Shown here piece by piece: positions 14,499 to 23,648 of a stretch of 36,950 nt of DNA (the first letter of the stretch is position 1; the number at the start of each line of letters is the position of its first letter). The DNA comes from Opitutia bacterium (GTDB lineage Bacteria > Verrucomicrobiota > Verrucomicrobiia > Opitutales > Seribacteraceae). The notes under the pieces were generated by a model. That model saw nothing but the letters and a program-made list of their open reading frames with translations, was not told where the DNA came from and made no database searches. The stretch spans positions 1 to 36,950 of the forward strand of contig NZKY01000036.1 in assembly GCA_002694035.1 (NCBI GenBank), in the 5' to 3' direction. The translations under genes were made by a program, and so were the position numbers.

Positions 14499-14795
14499 CT
14501 ATTCGCTGACAGCTTTTTCCTTAGAAGCTTTTTTAGCCTTCATTTGAGCAATAAGCTGTTTTGCCGAACCAGCAGCCAAAGTGCTTTTAAGATTGCCCTG
14601 CTTAGGCAAACTAGTAACAGCAGCAGCAATATTGGAGGACTGCATTTCCTCTAATATTTCTCTTCGTAAAATAGAAATTGATCGTGGAGCAGAAATTCCA
14701 ATCTTTACAGAATCTCCCTCAATTTTAGTGATTGAAATTTCGATTTCATCACCAATTGTTATCCCCTGATCTACTTTTCTTGATAATATCAACAT
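14499..14795 (-). CDS. csrA: Carbon storage regulator CsrA with extended C-terminus
   Basis: 98 aa. Residues 1-60 are a standard CsrA core (MLILSRKVDQG, then VKIGISAPRSISILRREI) with the RNA-binding arginine at position 44. CsrA dimers bind GGA-containing hairpins near ribosome-binding sites and repress or stabilise mRNAs, classically flagellin mRNA in bacteria that also carry FliW. Most homologues end near residue 60-70; here a further 35 residues end in a lysine/alanine-rich tail (QMKAKKASKEKAVSE). The gene follows fliW by 20 bases, the usual pairing of regulator and antagonist. The tail could affect FliW or RNA binding (inference). Confidence 0.96.
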   Translation of the reverse strand: MLILSRKVDQGITIGDEIEISITKIEGDSVKIGISAPRSISILRREILEEMQSSNIAAAVTSLPKQGNLKSTLAAGSAKQLIAQMKAKKASKEKAVSE

Positions 14796-14815: not shown

Positions 14816-15271
14816 TTAGAGACCTTCTCCGCCGACATCCAAGACATGGCGTGCTGAAAATTCTTCGTGGTTATTTATAATGCATTGTTTTCCAACCAAT
14901 GTTCTTCTATTAACTATAATTGGCCCCACTAAATTCAGTGAAATCTTCCCGCTTTGATCCGGAGGTAAAGTTACAATATTTAGAATCATTGTATCCTCAG
15001 GACCCGTTATATCTAAAAGTTTTACATCCGCATCAGAGATTTCCAGTGAATAGTCTGAAATGATTCCACCAGGTTCTAAAACAATAAAGGCTAATCCATC
15101 CTTTTTTTGCTCACGAAGCCACATAAACGGAAGTTCTTCCTGATCATAAACCAGCTCCATTTTTCTAATCTCCGCAAAGCCAAACAAACCCTGTGGGAGT
15201 TGTATCTCACTTCTAGCCTCGGATTGATTTAACTCCGGATTATTTGAATCTTCATCTAATTTGAGTTTCAT
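14816..15271 (-). CDS. fliW: Flagellar assembly factor FliW
   Basis: 151 aa. Family segments include LPQGLFGFAEIR (about 26-37), LPFMWLRE, FIVLEPGGI, and TLPPDQSGKISLNLVGPIIVN towards the C-terminus with RRTLVGKQCI. FliW binds CsrA and flagellin alternately, releasing CsrA repression when flagellin is depleted by export. A TTG codon lies directly before the ATG at 15271; the ATG is preferred. A charged N-terminal 20 residues precede the conserved core. It lies between flgL and csrA on the same strand, the arrangement seen in many FliW-bearing bacteria. Confidence 0.95.
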   Translation of the reverse strand: MKLKLDEDSNNPELNQSEARSEIQLPQGLFGFAEIRKMELVYDQEELPFMWLREQKKDGLAFIVLEPGGIISDYSLEISDADVKLLDITGPEDTMILNIVTLPPDQSGKISLNLVGPIIVNRRTLVGKQCIINNHEEFSARHVLDVGGEGL

Positions 15272-15280
15272 CAAGTATGA

Positions 15281-18200
15281 TTAAAGATAATTCAGTAAAG
15301 AGGTGTTTAGTAATTGAGAACCAATTTGTAGTGCGGCTTGATAAGAAGTAGATAAACGCGTTAATCTCATTATCGCCTCGGATAAATCAATATCTACATC
15401 GTTTGAAATTCTTTGATCCAATTGAACATAGTAATCTTCATCGTGAGCTCTCACAGTTTCCATTCTGACCATTCTGGAAGAAAGCTCCCCAAGTTTATTG
15501 ATCAATTTATCTTCCTGCTGAAGTAATTTCATCTCCTCATCTTCAACAGCCTGAGAATAATGGGAAGGAGTTGCGTTCGCCAAAGCATCTCTAAGGTCGA
15601 CAAGAGAGTTTACCACATCCCCTAATTCTTTGGTTCCATTATTATCTGCATCTAAAAAGCCTGAAATCTTGCTTTCATTCCCAATGTAATATTGGGAATT
15701 TTTATCACTGCCTGTGTATGTAACATTGATCACATTTCCTTCACTGTCGCGATGATCAAGAAAAGTTTTAGTTCCAGTTGCAAATGAGAAAGTATCTCCC
15801 ACACTCGCACTCATAGAAGTACCTTTCAGGGGAATATCTCCGGAAATATCGAAGCCAAGAACACGGTAAGGACCAGGATCATTTGGGTTTTGTCCCCATA
15901 AAATATCTGCTTCCATTTCCTGACCATCTTGCAAAATTACTTTTGCTTTCTGAAATGTCGGAGGAACCTCACCAGTACTAGAGGAACCAAAAAAGTATCT
16001 ACCAGGTTCAATAACTTTAAGTCCGACAACTTGACCGTCAGAATCAACAATTGCTTCGGCCTTTGCATCCACTCCAGAACTACCAGCGGGTTGTATAGTC
16101 ACCGCAGCACTTGTTGAGTTTTGAACTTTGAATTTGAATACATGATCTAAAGGTTTTTCGACTTGTAACCAAATATCATTAGCTACAATTTGACCACTTA
16201 ATGTTGGAATCGTTGGGTCACTCGGTTTAACTAATGGCAAATCGCCGGACAAACTTGGAATATTGAGGTAATTATTAAAACTATTTTTTTGGCACTGAAA
16301 ATATTTTCCTTCATGGTAGACAATCTGACCATAATCATAAGATAAATTAGGACTCCAATCATCGCCTTGCTTTGCGGACCGAGGACCCGGCACTGTATTC
16401 GAACTACCAATCTTAGAAAAAAGTGAACCTTCCTGCAGAGTATAATCAGGACTGTTCTGTTGTGTCCAATTGGAAGCAAAATTCGTAGCAGTATTATCAG
16501 TGGGACTTAAATCAATGTTGGCAGTATAGTAAATTCCATTACGGTAAGTGTGGTCGCCTTTATTGTAAGCAAAACCCTCATTCCAAGTTGTTGCTTCAGA
16601 CCAATTATTTGAAAAATTAGCTAGCGTATTGTTTTCTGCATTTGTTGAAGAGTTAGCAAAATAAAGCTTTCCATTAGCTAATGCCATTTCTCCGGAAGCA
16701 ACTGGAGAATTAGCCAACCACTCTGCAGGTTTGGAGATATTTTGTTTGGCTACATAAAAATCGTTATTATCTGAGTCATAGATATAATCACCGGCTTTTG
16801 CTTCCAGCTTTTTACCCGTTGAGTAAATGTGCTCTTTACCCTCGGTAGGTAAGTTGTTACCCAAAAGAAAAACACTACCATCTGATCTTTCTGTAAGGGC
16901 GACCAAATTTTGAAGACTCGCACTTATATTTGAACTATTAACTGTAGTATCAGTCAAAGACAGAGTCGAATTACTTTTAACAACGAAATATTGATTGTTT
17001 ATCGTATCGTGGAGATACTGTCCGCTTTTAAGCTGCACATCGTCCGGTGCATAGCCCATTTCAATCAAACCAGAGGGCAGATAAACCGATACAGGACTAG
17101 TTGTCGTGCTCACCTCCTTAAAATATTTATTGTTAAGGGTGTTGGTGGTAGTGGTTGCCTCACTTTTGACAGTTGGGGAGACATTCGTAGGTTTTGTCCC
17201 CACAGTCATAGAAGACAACAAAGAAGCAGAAGGAGGATTCGGAGGAGTGCCCAATTCATTCCAATTCGAAGAGAAGTTCGCCTCGTTGTTACTCGATGCA
17301 GTAAGGTTGTTAACTGCCTCATAAAGCTTACCATCTTTGAATGCAGTCTCACCGCTTGTCACAACTTCACCAGTCTTCCATTCTCCCAAGTGAGAGGTTT
17401 TAACTTCAAAATATATACCGTCTCCGTTTGAATCCACGCCATCCCATACAACATCTCCAATAGCGTAGTCTTTTTTAGGATCAAATGTACCTCGCATCAC
17501 ATCGGATGCAACTAGGACAGTCTGGCTGTCTGGTGAAATATAATTTCCAGCCAAAAAAGGGGAAGAATTAAAAGGATCCAAACTAGCTGGATCACGAGGC
17601 ATTGTGGAAGCAGTTGCCGTAGCTTGACTGAGTACAGAATTTATATCTGCTGCACTGAGAGTCACATTCTGATTGGCAAGATAATATTTATTATTTGTAT
17701 CATCATGAATATACTGACCAGCATTTAATGATAGAGGAGTACCTGAAGACAACTTAACAACTTGTCCATTATAGGTAACTATATCTCCCGAAGGAGGAAA
17801 GTTTTCAACTATATGTTCTAGATTTGTAGGATCGACTTTAGTTGTATCCTGAACAAGAAAATAACGCCCCTCGTGTAAAATGACATCATTGTTGCTGTAT
17901 TTTTCCTCAACAGATAAAACCTGACCATTTTCCTTTATAAAAGAACCTTTTACAATGGAGCCTCCATCACTTGCTGCTACAAGTTTATACTCGAGGGTTT
18001 CAGGATCAAAAAACACAGCACCATCACTTTCAGAGCCTTTAATCAAAAATTCATTAACAGGTACAGCAATTCTTTTAACTGTATTTGCAAGGTCAGTAGC
18101 TAAGGCTGCACCCGGGTTATCGGATTGTTGATATTCCTGAATTTTACTAGAAAGAAGAATGTTTTGAGCGTAAGTATTTGCTTCTGACAAATCAGCAAAA

Positions 18201-19471
18201 AGTTTGCCATCAGGCGTAGAGTAATAAAACCTACTTGTCGTATCTACTACCTCTAACTTCCAATCTTCTCTTTTGACATCATAACCGCTACCAACTTCTT
18301 TCCAATAATCCATCCCACTGCTCACAGGAGAATGATTTACATTATCAGAAATTAATGACTCAAAAAGTTTACCATCATGCTCAACAATATCTCCCTGTTT
18401 GTATATATTAAGCCGTCTCCATCCATCGGTGTGTTCAATTTGAAGTGAAGATGTCCCGTCAACAAGTTTATCATTAACAGTTAATTTGCGGGTCCAATCA
18501 CTTCCCTTAACAGCGTTGTCGACAAGTTCTTTTTCGGTCAATCCAAGTTCAGAATATTTAACACCAGGATATCGTGACGCAGTTTCCGCATTCAGTTTCT
18601 CTTCCAACTGCTCTGGAAAATAATAATTTGGGTTCCATTTTGTAGTGTAGGAAGAACTGGCACCAAAAGACTCTCCCACACTTCCGTAAACAATTAAATC
18701 ACCATTCGTGGCAATCTCACTGTCTAACTTAGCATTAGGATTACGAGAAATATTACTGCTGGAAACACCTCTTACAAAAGCTTTATACTCCGAAGTTTCA
18801 TAAGACGGAGAATCGGAAAGTAATTCAGTATCATTATTGATCAAGTCCTGTAATCTCGTGGCAATAGTCTGAGTGCTCAAACCATTTAGTTTTGACTGAA
18901 CTACATACTCACGACCGTTTAGTTCAAAAATAATAACTTCATCCTTTTCAACTCTTCTTTTTCCATCATTACCAAGAATCCCGACCTCATTGAAAGAAAA
19001 TGTTTTTGACTCTCGTTTACCTAAAAGAATTTCAGAATTACTAAATTCGGGTTTTAACTTTGTACCGCCAAATAATGACTGCTTTCGATGAGTAGAGTTT
19101 ACTCTATTCAAAGCCTCCTCAATTAATTCGTTTAGCTCATAACCATAAGTCTCCATGGCAGGACCATTTAGACTCGACCCGGCGGTTCTAGCAATTTCCT
19201 GCCCTCGCTGATTTAGTTCTCTCAGTTTATCTAGGTTCAAATGTCCAGCATCAAGGTATTCTTTAGCGTAGGATGCATTCCTTTGGTACTGAGTAAGTTG
19301 CCCCTTTTGTGTTTCCAATTGGATCACACGCCCCAAACGCATCCCATCGTCTTCGGGTAAAGTAAGTTTCTGACCGCTCGAAATTTGAGCATCAAGCTTG
19401 AATCTTTGCTGATCCAATTCCTTTATCTTTTGGATAATCGCGTCGCTTGATGTTATGTTGGGTAATCTCAT
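15281..19471 (-). CDS. flgL: Flagellar hook-filament junction protein FlgL with giant repeat-bearing insertion
   Basis: 1396 aa, against roughly 300-400 aa for most FlgL proteins. Residues 1-140 are a flagellin-type N-terminal helix domain (MRLPNITSSD, ISSGQKLTLPEDDG, QRNASYAKEYLDAG, NRVNSTHRKQSLFGG). Residues about 1300-1396 are the matching C-terminal domain, ending SYQAALQIGSQLLNTSLLNYL, characteristic of FlgL. The roughly 1150 residues between would project outward from the junction. They contain at least five degenerate units of the G-x-x-V-x-Y-x-G-K-x-Y type, three ending in NF[SA]xNW, plus three units with Y[IL]xDxxNNxY[FY]. These resemble chitin-binding CBM5/12 modules, and related units occur in flgK. 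No frameshift is seen; the reading frame is continuous. Confidence 0.9.
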   Translation of the reverse strand: MRLPNITSSDAIIQKIKELDQQRFKLDAQISSGQKLTLPEDDGMRLGRVIQLETQKGQLTQYQRNASYAKEYLDAGHLNLDKLRELNQRGQEIARTAGSSLNGPAMETYGYELNELIEEALNRVNSTHRKQSLFGGTKLKPEFSNSEILLGKRESKTFSFNEVGILGNDGKRRVEKDEVIIFELNGREYVVQSKLNGLSTQTIATRLQDLINNDTELLSDSPSYETSEYKAFVRGVSSSNISRNPNAKLDSEIATNGDLIVYGSVGESFGASSSYTTKWNPNYYFPEQLEEKLNAETASRYPGVKYSELGLTEKELVDNAVKGSDWTRKLTVNDKLVDGTSSLQIEHTDGWRRLNIYKQGDIVEHDGKLFESLISDNVNHSPVSSGMDYWKEVGSGYDVKREDWKLEVVDTTSRFYYSTPDGKLFADLSEANTYAQNILLSSKIQEYQQSDNPGAALATDLANTVKRIAVPVNEFLIKGSESDGAVFFDPETLEYKLVAASDGGSIVKGSFIKENGQVLSVEEKYSNNDVILHEGRYFLVQDTTKVDPTNLEHIVENFPPSGDIVTYNGQVVKLSSGTPLSLNAGQYIHDDTNNKYYLANQNVTLSAADINSVLSQATATASTMPRDPASLDPFNSSPFLAGNYISPDSQTVLVASDVMRGTFDPKKDYAIGDVVWDGVDSNGDGIYFEVKTSHLGEWKTGEVVTSGETAFKDGKLYEAVNNLTASSNNEANFSSNWNELGTPPNPPSASLLSSMTVGTKPTNVSPTVKSEATTTTNTLNNKYFKEVSTTTSPVSVYLPSGLIEMGYAPDDVQLKSGQYLHDTINNQYFVVKSNSTLSLTDTTVNSSNISASLQNLVALTERSDGSVFLLGNNLPTEGKEHIYSTGKKLEAKAGDYIYDSDNNDFYVAKQNISKPAEWLANSPVASGEMALANGKLYFANSSTNAENNTLANFSNNWSEATTWNEGFAYNKGDHTYRNGIYYTANIDLSPTDNTATNFASNWTQQNSPDYTLQEGSLFSKIGSSNTVPGPRSAKQGDDWSPNLSYDYGQIVYHEGKYFQCQKNSFNNYLNIPSLSGDLPLVKPSDPTIPTLSGQIVANDIWLQVEKPLDHVFKFKVQNSTSAAVTIQPAGSSGVDAKAEAIVDSDGQVVGLKVIEPGRYFFGSSSTGEVPPTFQKAKVILQDGQEMEADILWGQNPNDPGPYRVLGFDISGDIPLKGTSMSASVGDTFSFATGTKTFLDHRDSEGNVINVTYTGSDKNSQYYIGNESKISGFLDADNNGTKELGDVVNSLVDLRDALANATPSHYSQAVEDEEMKLLQQEDKLINKLGELSSRMVRMETVRAHDEDYYVQLDQRISNDVDIDLSEAIMRLTRLSTSYQAALQIGSQLLNTSLLNYL
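16274..16363 (-). repeat. FlgL repeat A5 (CBM5/12-like unit)
   Basis: FlgL residues 1037-1066: DDWSPNLSYDYGQIVYHEGK then YFQCQKNS. This is the closest visible match to a chitin-binding module start (W, Y, G-Q-x-V, G-K-x-[YF]-x-C). Confidence 0.6.
16460..16588 (-). repeat. FlgL repeat A4 (CBM5/12-like unit)
   Basis: FlgL residues 962-1004. Immediately after A3: TWNEGFAYNKGDHTYRNGIY opens the unit and TNFASNWTQ closes it. This unit has both the leading and closing tryptophans expected of a small CBM5/12 module. Confidence 0.65.
16592..16705 (-). repeat. FlgL repeat A3 (CBM5/12-like unit)
   Basis: FlgL residues 923-960. SGEMALANGKLYFANSS is followed by ANFSNNWSEA, closely parallel to A2. Confidence 0.6.
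16733..16795 (-). repeat. FlgL repeat B3
   Basis: FlgL residues 893-913: AGDYIYDSDNNDFYVAKQNI. Same core as B1 and B2. Confidence 0.6.
16958..17026 (-). repeat. FlgL repeat B2
   Basis: FlgL residues 816-838: SGQYLHDTINNQYFVVKSNS, nearly the same pattern as B1, both followed by TLS. Confidence 0.6.
17252..17377 (-). repeat. FlgL repeat A2 (CBM5/12-like unit)
   Basis: FlgL residues 699-740. A short SGETAFKDGKLYEAVNN segment is followed by ANFSSNWNEL. The NFxxNW ending recurs in A3 and A4. Confidence 0.6.
17654..17722 (-). repeat. FlgL repeat B1
   Basis: FlgL residues 584-606: AGQYIHDDTNNKYYLANQNV. Shares the Y-[IL]-x-D-x-x-N-N-x-[YF]-[YF] core with B2 and B3. Confidence 0.6.
18287..18406 (-). 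repeat. FlgL repeat A1 (CBM5/12-like unit)
   Basis: Residues 356-395 of FlgL: YKQGDIVEHDGKLFES followed about 20 residues later by YWKEV. The G-D-I-V, D-G-K-L-[FY] and closing W positions match the other A units. Confidence 0.5.
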
Positions 19472-19475
19472 TTAT

Positions 19476-22400
19476 TTATTTGAGGAGTCCCATAACAACG
19501 AGTTCTAACATTTTGTCGAGGGTATTTAGGACTCTAGAGGATGCCTGAAAGGATCTTTGGAATTGCATCAAATCCGCTACTTCTTCGTCTATTGAAACTG
19601 AACTCACTGCGTTTCTTTGTTCAAGAAGAAGATTTTCTATCGTTTTTTGATGGTCTATGTTATCGCTAAGATCAGACAAAGAATTGCCAATATCAGCATT
19701 TATGTCCGAAATATCTTTGGCAAATTCATTATTCCCTAACTCTGCAATGGCTAGAGCAATATCATTAGAGCCTTGATCAAAATCTAAGCTAGCTACAATA
19801 CTTTCTGCTGACAAATCATTATCAACAATAAGAGAACTAGCCAGATTCCAACCGTTGGCTAAAACAGCATCAAAAGAGAAGTTATCCCCTAATAGGAATT
19901 CACTATCGCCCTGTTCTAATCGAAAAGGAATATTTTCATATGCCAACATAACCGAACGACCATCATCTGCTGTGCCAATCAACAAGTCTTCTCCAGCATA
20001 CGCATTATCCGTTTCCATGGTAACATTCTGCATCTTTTTCGCACTTCCGTAAAAGGTATACAAAGAACCAGAATTAGTATCCTCAAGTTGCAACTGTCCA
20101 TCAACTGTATCCCTAATTATATAACCTGTTCCCTCGAACCGTTCCCTTAGCTCTACTGGAATTACCGGTGTGGTGCTAGTAACAGTGAAAGTGTCATTTT
20201 CTGCGTAAGCCAAAGTCATAGAAACTTCATTTCTAAATAACTTCATCTCCCCATTACCTTCGACACCATAAAGTCCAAATTCTTCCTCCATGATGACATT
20301 ACGCCCCATGGTTGGACGGGTTAAATTAGCCTCAAATCCAAATAGATATTCACCTGGGGCATCATTAGGGTTATAAATTCCATTAATCTGGGTGACAAAT
20401 TTTGAAACTAGATTGTTCAATGAAATCCGATAATCCTCAAGTTCAACTTGGCGAGCTTTTTGATAACCATGTAAAGAACCTGACTCTAGTTCTAGCTCTA
20501 CACCATTAACAAAGAGTGCATCTGTTGAAGGTAAATTATTTGATGTGCTTAGAATATTAAAACCTTTAATTTCACCATTCTGGATAATCGCTTCAGCGAC
20601 ACCAATATTTAATTCCTGCAAAGAACCATTACTTATATTAAAACCGCCAGGACTTGACTTTCTCAATACTGATGTTGGTGGAAGTCCGGAATTAGCATCT
20701 GGTTTGAAAATATGAAAGTTATTCTTCCAAATTGCATCGTTTGGGTTAAATAAGTTAATTTGTGCTTCACCTGATATAGCATTCGGCTTGGCTTTAACTA
20801 AAAAATGCGTTGATGATGCTTCATCATAATAAATTTTACCCGAATCAAAATTTAATTGGAGTTCAGTAACCTGTTGTGCATTTTGTATAAAAGTAACCTG
20901 CTCAGGCAAAGATTGGACAGTTGCAACAGTGTCATCAACAAATGCACCTAAACGAATAAAATTAGAGGAAGAATGTGGTAGTTCGGTAGTTGCTGCATCT
21001 ACATTTGCAACAGCCATGTAAAAATCACCCTGCGATCCAGAAGGAGCATTTGGATCGACAAATGAGATTACAGATCCAGCAGTTAATCCCTGTCCGTTAG
21101 GCCAAGCTATATTTAGGCTATTCGATCTTTGTGGAAGTGCATTTCCTATTGTAACAACTCCGGTCTGATCAACAGTTCCGGCTACATTAGAAAGAGATGA
21201 GAATTCTGCTCCTTTGGAAATATTTTGGGAAGCCTGATAATAAATATCATTAAATAAAAATACCTCACCTTTGGAATAATTTCTAGAGCTTAGAACCGAA
21301 TCCGTTGCAGGATCGACAACCCCCAGCTCATTGGATACTGCTCCAACATCCGTGGTAGCCTGATAAACTTTTCCTTCGTAATAAATCTGCTCACCTTTAG
21401 ATATAAAGTCTACATCGGAAAAGGTTCTTTTCGTTTCTTTAATGATCCCATTTGGCACATTGGCAATTGCCATGAAACGAGATTCATCTGATAACAAATC
21501 GCCTTTTTCTGTATTAACGAGTGCCTGATAGTAACTCCCACCCTCAAAAAAAACTTCACCAATTTTCCTGGAACTGGAGGCCGGATCATTTGGAGTAGTA
21601 CTGGCGATATCTCCACCAGTTTGTGGAGCAATTTCATTACCAACATCGACCGGTTGATTTGCCATCTGGATCGGTGCCACTTGCTGATTAACTGGGACCG
21701 CAACTTCCCCTTCCTGTTGCACTGCATCTTGAGCTTGTACAGTTAATTGCTCAGTTGGTTTAGGGGGAAGAATGCTGACAAGAAATGGTCCTTTAGAATC
21801 ATCATACTTCGAACCACCTTTCAAAACTTCAAGTCTTCCAAGCTGTCCATTCGAATCAATCTTAGCCCTTATCAATGCTGAAGTACCCGCAGGATCATTA
21901 GGTGCAGGAATTGAGAACTCTTGTCCCCATTGATTTGAGAGAGACTTTGCCCCTTTGGAATCCAAAATATTTATTTTTTCTCCATTTTTGCCATCAACAA
22001 AAAGATTTACAAAGCCAGAAACCTCGCCTGTAGTTGCAGAAATATCATCCTCTTGTTTAAAATCCATGTAGCTACCCAACTCCTCTAGCAACTTTTGTCG
22101 ATGATCTCGGTAAGATACTGCTTTGCCTTGATCAAGAAGTTCAAAACGGCGAACTTGAGTATTAACTTCATGAATTTGAGAAAGCAAAATATTTATCTGT
22201 TCTGTCGACCTCTTGATAACTTCAGAAATATCGTATTCTATTTGCTCCAAACTATGCCCAGCTTCATTGAACCTTTTGGTCAAAGTTTCAATTTTATGAA
22301 AAATTTCCTGCTTAATAGTTGGCTCATAGGGTGAAGCAGAAAGTTCCTGAAAAGAATTAAAAAAATCATTCAAAGCTCTGGTGAGACTGCCAGGTGCTAG

Positions 22401-22763
22401 ATCACTTTCATGTAAATCATCAAGTCCAACATTTACACCTTGTCTGTTAATTTTTTCGCCTAATGCACTTTGTAATAATTGTAAAATCTCTTGTTGTGCT
22501 GCTAAAGATGCTCCATCTCCTTTCTCACTAATTACTCGAGAGTCTAAGATATGGTTTCTCGCATGATCAATACCACCTGCTTCAAGTCCAGAAGTCAGCA
22601 ATCCTCCAAAAGAAGTATGCATGACTCCTTCCCTAGCAAGCACTCGCTGTCTAGCATATGACTCATCATTTACATGTGCAAGATTTTGACCAGCAATTTC
22701 TGCAGTCCGTGCATGATAGCGGAGTGCTTCAGAATTTTTGCTTATTTCTCCTAAAAGTCCCAC
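19476..22763 (-). CDS. flgK: Flagellar hook-associated protein FlgK with large insertion
   Basis: 1095 aa, about twice the common FlgK length (near 550 aa). The N-terminal region (1-290) is canonical: MGLLGEISKNSEALRYHA, IAGQNLAHVNDESYARQRV, LNDFFNSFQELSASPYEP and VSYRDHRQKLLEELGSYMD. The C-terminal end (about 1055-1095) has SIDEEVADLMQFQRSFQASS and a closing leucine-rich helix, typical of FlgK. Between about 340 and 700 lies an inserted region with repeats of the type KGE-[VI]-x-[YF]-x-x-x-x-YYQA, related to those in FlgL. The start is GTG at 22763; the MGLLG beginning matches the family. FlgK joins hook and FlgL after export with chaperone FlgN, encoded just upstream. Confidence 0.92.
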   Translation of the reverse strand: MGLLGEISKNSEALRYHARTAEIAGQNLAHVNDESYARQRVLAREGVMHTSFGGLLTSGLEAGGIDHARNHILDSRVISEKGDGASLAAQQEILQLLQSALGEKINRQGVNVGLDDLHESDLAPGSLTRALNDFFNSFQELSASPYEPTIKQEIFHKIETLTKRFNEAGHSLEQIEYDISEVIKRSTEQINILLSQIHEVNTQVRRFELLDQGKAVSYRDHRQKLLEELGSYMDFKQEDDISATTGEVSGFVNLFVDGKNGEKINILDSKGAKSLSNQWGQEFSIPAPNDPAGTSALIRAKIDSNGQLGRLEVLKGGSKYDDSKGPFLVSILPPKPTEQLTVQAQDAVQQEGEVAVPVNQQVAPIQMANQPVDVGNEIAPQTGGDIASTTPNDPASSSRKIGEVFFEGGSYYQALVNTEKGDLLSDESRFMAIANVPNGIIKETKRTFSDVDFISKGEQIYYEGKVYQATTDVGAVSNELGVVDPATDSVLSSRNYSKGEVFLFNDIYYQASQNISKGAEFSSLSNVAGTVDQTGVVTIGNALPQRSNSLNIAWPNGQGLTAGSVISFVDPNAPSGSQGDFYMAVANVDAATTELPHSSSNFIRLGAFVDDTVATVQSLPEQVTFIQNAQQVTELQLNFDSGKIYYDEASSTHFLVKAKPNAISGEAQINLFNPNDAIWKNNFHIFKPDANSGLPPTSVLRKSSPGGFNISNGSLQELNIGVAEAIIQNGEIKGFNILSTSNNLPSTDALFVNGVELELESGSLHGYQKARQVELEDYRISLNNLVSKFVTQINGIYNPNDAPGEYLFGFEANLTRPTMGRNVIMEEEFGLYGVEGNGEMKLFRNEVSMTLAYAENDTFTVTSTTPVIPVELRERFEGTGYIIRDTVDGQLQLEDTNSGSLYTFYGSAKKMQNVTMETDNAYAGEDLLIGTADDGRSVMLAYENIPFRLEQGDSEFLLGDNFSFDAVLANGWNLASSLIVDNDLSAESIVASLDFDQGSNDIALAIAELGNNEFAKDISDINADIGNSLSDLSDNIDHQKTIENLLLEQRNAVSSVSIDEEVADLMQFQRSFQASSRVLNTLDKMLELVVMGLLK
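21219..21284 (-). repeat. FlgK repeat K3
   Basis: FlgK residues 494-515: NYSKGEVFLFNDIYYQASQN followed by ISKG. Shares KGE, hydrophobic pair and YYQA with K1 and K2. Confidence 0.6.
21348..21407 (-). repeat. FlgK repeat K2
   Basis: FlgK residues 453-472: ISKGEQIYYEGKVYQATTD. Nearest of the K units to the G-K-x-Y-x-A form seen in FlgL. Confidence 0.6.
21471..21572 (-). repeat. FlgK repeat K1
   Basis: FlgK residues 398-431. Core RKIGEVFFEGGSYYQALVN, comparable with FlgL A units. Confidence 0.55.
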
Positions 22764-22772
22764 GATATAAAA

Positions 22773-23303
22773 TTAGGCTGATTCGTTCAAGGACGATCGG
22801 CTATTTGGAGAAAGATGAACAGTATCACCTGAACGATTATAGGTTTTAGAATGTGATTTAGGATCCGTCACAGAAAGTAATTTATCTGTTACTTCACTTA
22901 AACGAGCTAATATCTTTTGATTTTGCGAAATTCTATGTCTGATCTGAGAAATTAATTTATTTATTTCCTCAATGATACTCTCAAACATAGGCTGGGTAAC
23001 AAGAGGAAAATGCTCAACCAATTGATTAAGACTTGTATCACTGGGCTCTCCCATTGAATGAGCCAACGATGTGACAAAACCCTGCCTTCTTTTCTGAAGA
23101 ATTTGACTAGCTTCCATTTGGGTCTGAACGGACTGATTGATTTCCATTAGACTTTCAGTGCGTCGGTCAAGAATACTTTGTTGTTGAGCATTTAGTAATC
23201 CTACCAAGCTGCCATACTCTTGAAGCTCATCTCTTAAGAGAGAAAGAAGATCTTCCCAAGTAAAGGACAAACTAGAATTCGGTTTCTGAGCAAGCTGAAC
23301 CAT
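22773..23303 (-). CDS. flgN: FlgN-like export chaperone
   Basis: 176 aa, almost entirely helical and polar, with the FlgN-type N-terminus WEDLLSLLRDELQEYGSLVGLLNAQQ (in parts about 16-42) and a LMEINQSVQTQMEASQILQKRR segment (about 52-73). FlgN is the cytosolic chaperone that keeps FlgK and FlgL unfolded and brings them to the export gate. Its position directly before flgK and flgL fits. Residues after about 145 are serine-rich and unlikely to be part of the helical bundle. Similarity at the sequence level is only moderate, so the call leans on context. Confidence 0.8.
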   Translation of the reverse strand: MVQLAQKPNSSLSFTWEDLLSLLRDELQEYGSLVGLLNAQQQSILDRRTESLMEINQSVQTQMEASQILQKRRQGFVTSLAHSMGEPSDTSLNQLVEHFPLVTQPMFESIIEEINKLISQIRHRISQNQKILARLSEVTDKLLSVTDPKSHSKTYNRSGDTVHLSPNSRSSLNESA

Positions 23304-23309
23304 TTTAAA

Positions 23310-23648
23310 TTATTTCTTAATGTCAGGACTATCCGGTCCTTGTTTAGTTTGTAATTGTTGTTGAAGAATAGTTGATACACCAAAGCCCCCTCCCTGGGTA
23401 ATACTTTCGGAAATAGCGTCAGTAAAAAAATGCCTGTACATTCGGTGTGCACCACCATCCTCATTAAAAACTCCTTTAAACATAGGCTTTAAAGCTTCCT
23501 TCAAAAACTGTTTCACTAGAACAGATTCAAACTGGTCACTGACCGCTGCAACTTTCTGGTCATGTGTTGTAGTTTTTGAATGAGCCATCTCCATGAGTAT
23601 GGATGAGTCCATCCCAACATATTGCTTACCTATTGCATCAGATTCCAT
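23310..23648 (-). CDS. flgJ: Rod-binding protein FlgJ, N-terminal domain only
   Basis: 112 aa, corresponding to the FlgJ rod-binding domain: VAAVSDQFESVLVKQFLKEALKPM (in parts about 33-56), GAHRMYRHFFTDAISESITQGGGFGVS (about 66-92). The C-terminal muramidase domain found in gammaproteobacterial FlgJ is absent, as in many other phyla, so peptidoglycan opening for the rod must use a separate lytic enzyme not seen here. Located between flgI and flgN, seven to eight bases from each. Confidence 0.88.
   Translation of the reverse strand: MESDAIGKQYVGMDSSILMEMAHSKTTTHDQKVAAVSDQFESVLVKQFLKEALKPMFKGVFNEDGGAHRMYRHFFTDAISESITQGGGFGVSTILQQQLQTKQGPDSPDIKK

Follow-up and report, generated by a model that had tools for sequence, protein, structure and literature searches.

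The carbohydrate-binding modules of family CBM5/12 (PF02839; ChiA1 of Bacillus circulans, 1ed7; Vibrio deacetylases, 3wx7/4ny2), the giant flagellins of marine gammaproteobacteria, the flagellinolysins, and certain phage tail fibres together with an Anabaena injection system provide the closest counterparts to the locus described here. With CBM5/12 the modules of its FlgL share a W-x(5)-Y-x-x-G-D-x-V-x-x-x-G-x-x-Y core, a closing W and a predicted hairpin; they differ from it in lying inside structural proteins, in having no counterpart to the Vibrio Trp at the aligned place of module 1, in an NxN[HR]xP loop, and in being putative binders only. The giant flagellins, in the available part of PMC6248924, are axial proteins of at least about 1000 residues whose ends are conserved and whose centre carries a large insertion, as here. 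In the present case, however, giant size extends to FlgL, FlgK, FliD and FlgE, and an identified module is present in the insertion; a giant FlgL is not reported in that part of the paper. Flagellinolysins, according to excerpts of PMC5595980, carry a foreign metallopeptidase in the flagellin centre. The present genome also has a Peptidase_M9 flagellin, but the modules considered here are non-enzymatic, of CBM type, and located in the junction and cap proteins plus one flagellin. Tail fibres of phages and the contractile injection system of Anabaena (9rkv, 8fqc, 7b5h) contain the same module type, likewise within large assemblies, which are not flagellar.

The window, a 36,950-nucleotide stretch of an Opitutia bacterium contig (NZKY01000036.1), contains a flagellar cluster in which flgL adjoins flgK, with flgA, flgH, flgI, a rod-binding gene, flgN and flgK upstream and fliW and csrA downstream (Table 1). 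The rod-binding ORF (23310-23648) is of insufficient length for an added muramidase domain. The ends of FlgL scored 129.1 bits with NCBIfam TIGR02550 (cut-off 127.2) and 28.2 bits with Pfam Flagellin_N (cut-off 26.6), Flagellin_C remaining below its cut-off (16.9 versus 23 bits), and both terminal regions were conserved in alignment A1, composed of the window FlgL and 15 relatives from 27 giant loci. The N-terminus was matched by 27 loci in 26 relatives, in frames ranging from 559 residues (truncated at a contig end) to 1500. Between these ends lies an insertion of about 1150 residues. An earlier note, made from the sequence alone, had described a FlgL with flagellin-type ends and about four times the usual length, and both statements are borne out, the latter because FlgL measures 271-321 residues in seven of the nine comparison genomes (eight from other families of the order plus G004; full range 271-519). 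The interval of 15572-19051 given in that note covers residues 141-1300, the full ORF being 15281-19471. No peptidase match was obtained in FlgL at E<=1 (Pfam), unlike flagellinolysin. Since phmmer with the whole FlgL against the PDB returned weak matches only, the best being a flagellar hook-associated protein (E 0.029), profiles were used instead.

The insertion had been proposed to contain at least five degenerate G-x-x-V-x-Y-x-G-K-x-Y units (type A), three NF[SA]xNW endings and three Y[IL]xDxxNN units (type B). Both of the latter were found, NF[SA]xNW at residues 732, 952 and 997 and Y[IL]xDxxNNx[YF] at 587, 819 and 896 (shuffle mean 0.00 for each, n=500). The strict form GxxVxYxGKxY gave no match in FlgL, but a relaxed form, fitted after the sequence had been seen, gave five matches (360, 707, 927, 972 and 1048; shuffle mean 0.00, n=500). 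A looser motif matched seven times versus 1.39 expected, a count reached by 0/500 shuffles. Five domains above 5 bits were identified in residues 141-1290 with the A4 module HMM, which was trained partly on the window FlgL; their sum of 145.2 bits was also reached by 0/500 shuffles. In an AlphaFold2 model of residues 131-1290 (36 sequences, mean pLDDT 80.2, pTM 0.68), every A motif (five) and every B motif (three) is placed on a short two-strand hairpin when the strand list is read against motif positions, and two extra hairpins at 530-540 and 674-689 bring the predicted CBM5/12-type hairpins of FlgL to ten. Because every motif falls on a hairpin, A and B are one unit with a longer or shorter turn; the two motifs are thus present, but as variants of one unit and not as two kinds. 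DNA-level repeats were considered and rejected: Tandem Repeats Finder identified one short array of six-base units only, from which it follows that the protein repeats have diverged, and the direct repeats (best 20 of 59 families looked at) were short and diverged.

Table 1. Features of the giant flgL region and of related loci. Positions without a locus prefix are those of the window; A4, score with the A4 module HMM.
Feature	Position	Strand	Evidence
csrA, after fliW	14499..14795	-	Pfam CsrA E 8e-22
fliW, directly downstream of flgL	14816..15274	-	Pfam FliW E 8.3e-32
flgL, giant hook-filament junction protein, 1396 aa	15281..19471	-	TIGR02550 and Flagellin_N
FlgL C-terminal flagellin-type helical region, residues 1272-1396 and stop	15281..15658	-	TIGR02550 second stretch; NF005187 1286-1396; alignment A1
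Module 2, residues 1036-1105, W1039...W1101	16157..16366	-	Pfam CBM_5_12 best stretch 1039-1061; A4 39.6 bits (in training set)
A unit ending NFASNW, residues 960-1004	16460..16594	-	A4 16.1 bits; hairpin 974-977/980-984
B unit 3 and A unit with NFSNNW, residues 890-960	16592..16804	-	Motifs 896, 927, 952; A4 2.0 bits; hairpins 896-899/904-908, 929-932/935-939
B unit 2, residues 815-845	16937..17029	-	Motif 819; A4 -2.6 bits; hairpin 819-822/827-831
Cassette common to giant flagellin, residues 615-790	17102..17629	-	E 5.9e-27 to same-genome flagellin over 615-786
Cassette unit ending NFSSNW, residues 695-740	17252..17389	-	A4 6.1 bits; hairpin 709-712/715-719
Cassette unit, residues 661-699	17375..17491	-	A4 22.7 bits (part in training set); hairpin 674-679/685-689
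B unit 1, residues 579-609	17645..17737	-	Motif 587; A4 -0.2 bits; hairpin 587-590/595-599
Degenerate unit, residues 520-547	17831..17914	-	A4 1.3 bits; hairpin 530-533/536-540
Module 1, complete CBM5/12-type unit, residues 349-393, W351/Y357/G360/W390	18293..18427	-	A4 59.2 bits (in training set)
FlgL N-terminal flagellin-type helical region, residues 1-140	19052..19471	-	Pfam Flagellin_N 22-127; TIGR02550 2-140; alignment A1
flgK, 1095 aa, enlarged	19476..22763	-	Pfam FlgK_D1 and Flg_bbr_C; TIGR02492 159.5 bits, under cut-off 170.75
FlgK unit, residues 492-527	21183..21290	-	A4 15.4 bits; hairpin 501-504/507-511
FlgK unit, residues 455-478	21330..21401	-	A4 6.9 bits; hairpin 459-462/465-469
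FlgK unit, residues 395-428	21480..21581	-	A4 2.1 bits; hairpin 404-407/410-414 in FlgK model
flgN-type chaperone gene, upstream of flgK	22773..23303	-	Pfam FlgN E 2.4e-20
Rod-binding protein, 112 aa	23310-23648	-	Pfam PF10135
Cytochrome c oxidase subunits IV, II with module	L040:3-656; L040:3346-4779	-	Profile; widespread in the window's family
Sodium/solute symporter of one relative, module residues 346-387 after first SSF stretch	L167:2202-4058	-	SSF 151.9 bits; CBM_5_12 E 0.032
Flagellin with C-type lectin domain between ends	L240:2464-3735	+	Pfam Lectin_C E 2.5e-6, above cut-off
Flagellin with Peptidase_M9 (collagenase), flagellinolysin-like	L239:5906-7600	-	E 2e-10

The relation of the units to CBM5/12 was investigated by domain, profile and structure searches. 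For FlgL as a whole, the stretches together scored 36.1 bits with the Pfam CBM_5_12 model (cut-off 26.2), while single stretches reached about 20 bits, under the cut-off (best alone 20.2). Matches to this model were obtained at E<=0.01 in 14 of 16 FlgL relatives; at E<=10 they also occur in 11 of 14 control genomes. When compared with solved structures, the A3 profile (16 rows, 15 from FlgL) matched Vibrio DA1 (4e-7), 3wx7 (1.5e-6) and ChiA1 1ed7 (5.7e-5). The A4 profile, consisting of 19 rows which include oxidase, symporter and secreted modules and no row from FlgK, FliC or FliD, matched 3wx7 (2.9e-10), 1ed7 (1.5e-6) and 2rts (2.8e-5). Module 1 alone gave weak matches (7b5h 0.0015, 2rts 0.0023, 1ed7 0.48). 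Foldseek with the FlgL model returned Vibrio deacetylase chains with probability 1.00 and E of about 3e-3, the matched part of the chain not being shown; a Campylobacter hook-filament junction-cap chain was second (probability 0.28), and DDB1 and other large beta proteins ranked among the matches at probability <=0.06.

In module 1, for which strands are predicted at 362-365, 368-372 and 390-393, W351, G360 and W390 are kept in all 33 readable rows of 36 (three gapped rows were omitted) and position 357 is Y or F. W1039 of module 2 is kept in 34/34 readable rows. Counterparts of the core Y and closing W of CBM5/12, equated with the CBM5 core via the Vibrio modules and not via a CBM5 sequence, are found at Y/F357 and W390 (33/33) in module 1 and at Y1045 (34/34) and W1101 (33/33 readable rows of 36) in module 2. 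The earlier note had seen a resemblance of the A-type pattern to CBM5/12 and would have abandoned it for want of any CBM domain match and CBM5/12 fold; sequence matches and a predicted fold were both found. Supported by Pfam, by the profile-to-structure matches and by AlphaFold2/Foldseek, the resemblance is real as judged by sequence and predicted fold.

In the same genome FlgK is 1095, one flagellin (FliC) 943 and FliD 1951 residues long. Two, three and four A4 domains above 5 bits were identified in the inserts of FlgK, FliC and FliD, respectively, with sums of 24.2, 20.0 and 32.0 bits, each reached by 0/500 shuffles; the FliC test is not fully independent since one FlgL training row sits in the cassette shared with FliC. 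The loose motif was not enriched in FlgK or FliD, where 114/500 and 63/500 shuffles reached the count, and a Pfam CBM match was absent from all three proteins of this genome. FliD of one relative scored 43.1 bits with CBM_5_12, above the cut-off. With an AlphaFold2 model of FlgK residues 271-790 (29 sequences, pLDDT 81.9), Foldseek listed phage tail fibres first by E (probability 0.44 to 0.47), followed by 3wx7 (0.93) and Serratia ChiB (0.54), no E reaching 1e-3. In other species the cassette held in common with the giant flagellin occupies a second position within FlgL (segments >100 aa were used for the cassette tree, >140 aa for its identity table), and this points to duplication or to exchange between flagellar genes as its probable origin. 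The module is thus not limited to a FlgL collar, since FlgK, FliD and a single giant flagellin of this genome have it as well, as do oxidase subunits II and IV and, in one relative, a symporter; the sugar-binding collar at the hook-filament junction which the earlier note envisaged is unproven and, judged from sequence, would be too narrow a functional reading.

Two wider generalizations were rejected. That every giant axial protein carries the module is ruled out by the hook protein FlgE (1265 aa; L200:2129-5926, minus strand), in which the A4 HMM found no module domain; this frame has ambiguous bases, seen as X in the translation. That all flagellins carry it is ruled out by its presence in only one, the giant one, of the 25 flagellin-like frames of this genome. 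The genome (G000, 2.88 Mb) holds a very large flagellin gene family, with 27 Flagellin_N matches, FlgL included, on contigs C19, C68, C145, C39, C51, C142, C31 and C85 (loci L237-L244). Its relatives G001 and G022 have 17 Flagellin_N matches each, and matches also lie in open frames of 2307 aa (G015:C60:8419-8793) and 2077 aa (G031:C15:73308-73712). Because flagellins with a lectin and a collagenase domain (Table 1) are among the 25 frames, display of domains on the filament appears to be a habit in this genome. The neighbour of the lectin flagellin at L240 (1019-2419) is similar to it by eye and has no Pfam lectin match.

Outside the flagellum, a cytochrome c oxidase (COX) subunit IV-like protein was matched in 33 of the 37 genomes of the window's family, all 33 aligning through the module region; among 20 other genomes of the order ten match, and all ten stop by residue 113. 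The module profile itself matched in nine of the subunit IV ORFs. In this genome the unit of COX subunit II separates the COX2 domain from the cytochrome c domain. All of 19 COX2 ORFs, chosen by the motif C[AS]EYCG from 30 loci (L201-L230), matched the module at 2.9 to 38.7 bits under a lenient cut (E<=0.05 for one sequence), one of them being a training row. Two secreted-looking proteins of relatives have an N-terminal module, one over the Pfam cut-off, and the A4 profile compared with structures found the module in the injection-system component All3316/Cis13, a part of a thylakoid-anchored injection system according to excerpts of PMC8894136. Attachment to outside polysaccharide is not expected of the module in All3316/Cis13 and cytochrome oxidase.

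A giant or contig-cut FlgL was identified in 30 of the 37 genomes of the window's family, its own included and one as a 127-aa piece only; no FlgL match was obtained in six of the 37. Based on the A3 profile at E<=0.001, 12 of 15 listed genomes of the family match versus 4 of 162 other genomes of the order, in which figure 141 matchless genomes were counted as other families from list order and not by name; the four matches outside the family are weak (1.3e-4 to 6.7e-4). At E<=0.01, 36 of 41 genomes of the family match the module profile. The trait is nearly restricted to one family of Opitutales. The relatives bear the record titles Opitutales, Opitutia or Verrucomicrobia and, from the naming styles of the isolates, are presumably marine and in some cases single-cell genomes; the single-cell origin would speak against a binning artefact.

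Two genomes deserve separate mention. G004, filed in the window's genus, has a FlgL frame of 519 residues; its locus L062 and locus L059 of G046 each give 513 residues with near-equal scores although the two genomes are filed in different families, a possible binning error. In G007, loci L042 and L043 hold two different FlgL genes (1379 and 1233 aa), both at a contig end, indicating either a second flagellar set or a mixed bin.

The explanation which we hold slightly better than an even chance is that the gene encodes a genuine FlgL in which CBM5/12-derived beta-hairpin modules have replaced or enlarged the outer-domain region, their main role being to build up the shell of the distal flagellum. 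The remodelling would be family-wide, with common modules in FlgK, FlgL, one giant flagellin and FliD. The conserved ends of FlgL would be packed in the tube in the normal way, with the modules pointing outward to form a thick, beta-rich shell, and junction, filament and cap would thereby correspond to one another. Two modules of FlgL (349-393 and 1036-1105) are probably fixed elements, the remaining units varying in number, and any contact with polysaccharide would be multivalent, each module contributing weakly.

The strongest competitor, which we regard as tentative, is that the modules still bind polysaccharide (chitin, mucus, algal glycan or peptidoglycan), making the distal flagellum a sticky, multivalent rod that would adhere to surfaces, gels or algae. 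CBM5/12 kinship agrees with it, many module copies per filament would provide avidity, and the secreted-looking proteins with an N-terminal module, the two GH18 matches of the window's genome and its lectin and collagenase flagellins fit as well, the last two as ligand-binding display. The loops speak partly against it. Binding by CBM5 uses exposed aromatics, a Y-W or W-W pair, the core Y and W holding the fold, according to the available part of PMC8449059. The Vibrio CBM12 Trp column aligns with P382 of module 1 (33/33 rows), or, with the xP motif brought into register, with H/R380, within an invariant NxN[HR]xP loop peculiar to module 1, and the loop of the window's own module 1 has no aromatic. 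On the other side, 19 of 33 readable FlgL rows have an F or W elsewhere in this loop, mostly at position 378, and an aromatic (F, W or Y) is present in the module 2 loop of 31 of 33. Many module 1 rows have a Y-W pair at 389-390, of which W390, however, is the closing W of the core. The putative exposed binding site is therefore ambiguous on sequence. Chitin degradation was rejected as explaining the trait, GH18 being matched in only 15 of 41 genomes of the family; its lack in the other 26, many of them incomplete, also counts against the sticky rod, as do the modules on cytochrome oxidase. In addition, cells of marine Verrucomicrobiota in a bloom, MB11C04 among those probed, were mostly single and unattached in the excerpts of PMC8857213; that the window's family is MB11C04 is a guess from habitat and flagella. 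The role as building block is ranked somewhat above glycan binding because of the oxidase fusions and the module in an injection-system component, and binding of some glycan by the modules is far from excluded.

It is unlikely, in our estimate, that in this family the module is a general decoration for the outward faces of unrelated machines (junction, cap, filament, COX II/IV and, in one genome, a symporter) which ties these machines to a common glycan such as peptidoglycan or capsule and has spread by gene-to-gene exchange. Escape from flagellotropic phages or grazers by variable outer domains, for which the modules would be the raw material of surface variation, seems quite improbable: copy number and insertion points do vary by species (uncut FlgL 932-1502 aa; two cassette positions), and tail fibres of the Agrobacterium phages 7-7-1 and Milano, which we take to use flagella as receptor, are among the structural matches, but modules 1 and 2 are conserved, and the oxidase fusions are left unaccounted for. 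Outer domains rich in beta structure are usual among flagellar proteins, single Pfam CBM stretches are weak and module 1 alone barely finds solved CBMs, yet an ordinary flagellin-type D2/D3 domain with a CBM likeness due to chance or composition is highly improbable, being contradicted by the 0/500 shuffles, the Pfam score above cut-off, the profile matches to solved CBM5/12, FlgE without the domain and the 24 of 25 flagellin-like frames without a module.

No report of CBM5/12 modules in FlgL, FlgK, FliD or cytochrome oxidase was found by word search of open-licence PMC papers. Insertion of domains into flagellin is known; one module family extending over junction, filament and cap and into an oxidase did not turn up in this search. 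A label of chitin adhesin given to such proteins from Pfam alone would be unsafe. With this family of bacteria it becomes testable whether the various flagellar parts evolve their outer domains in concert, and whether recruitment of a CBM fold can serve a purely structural purpose.
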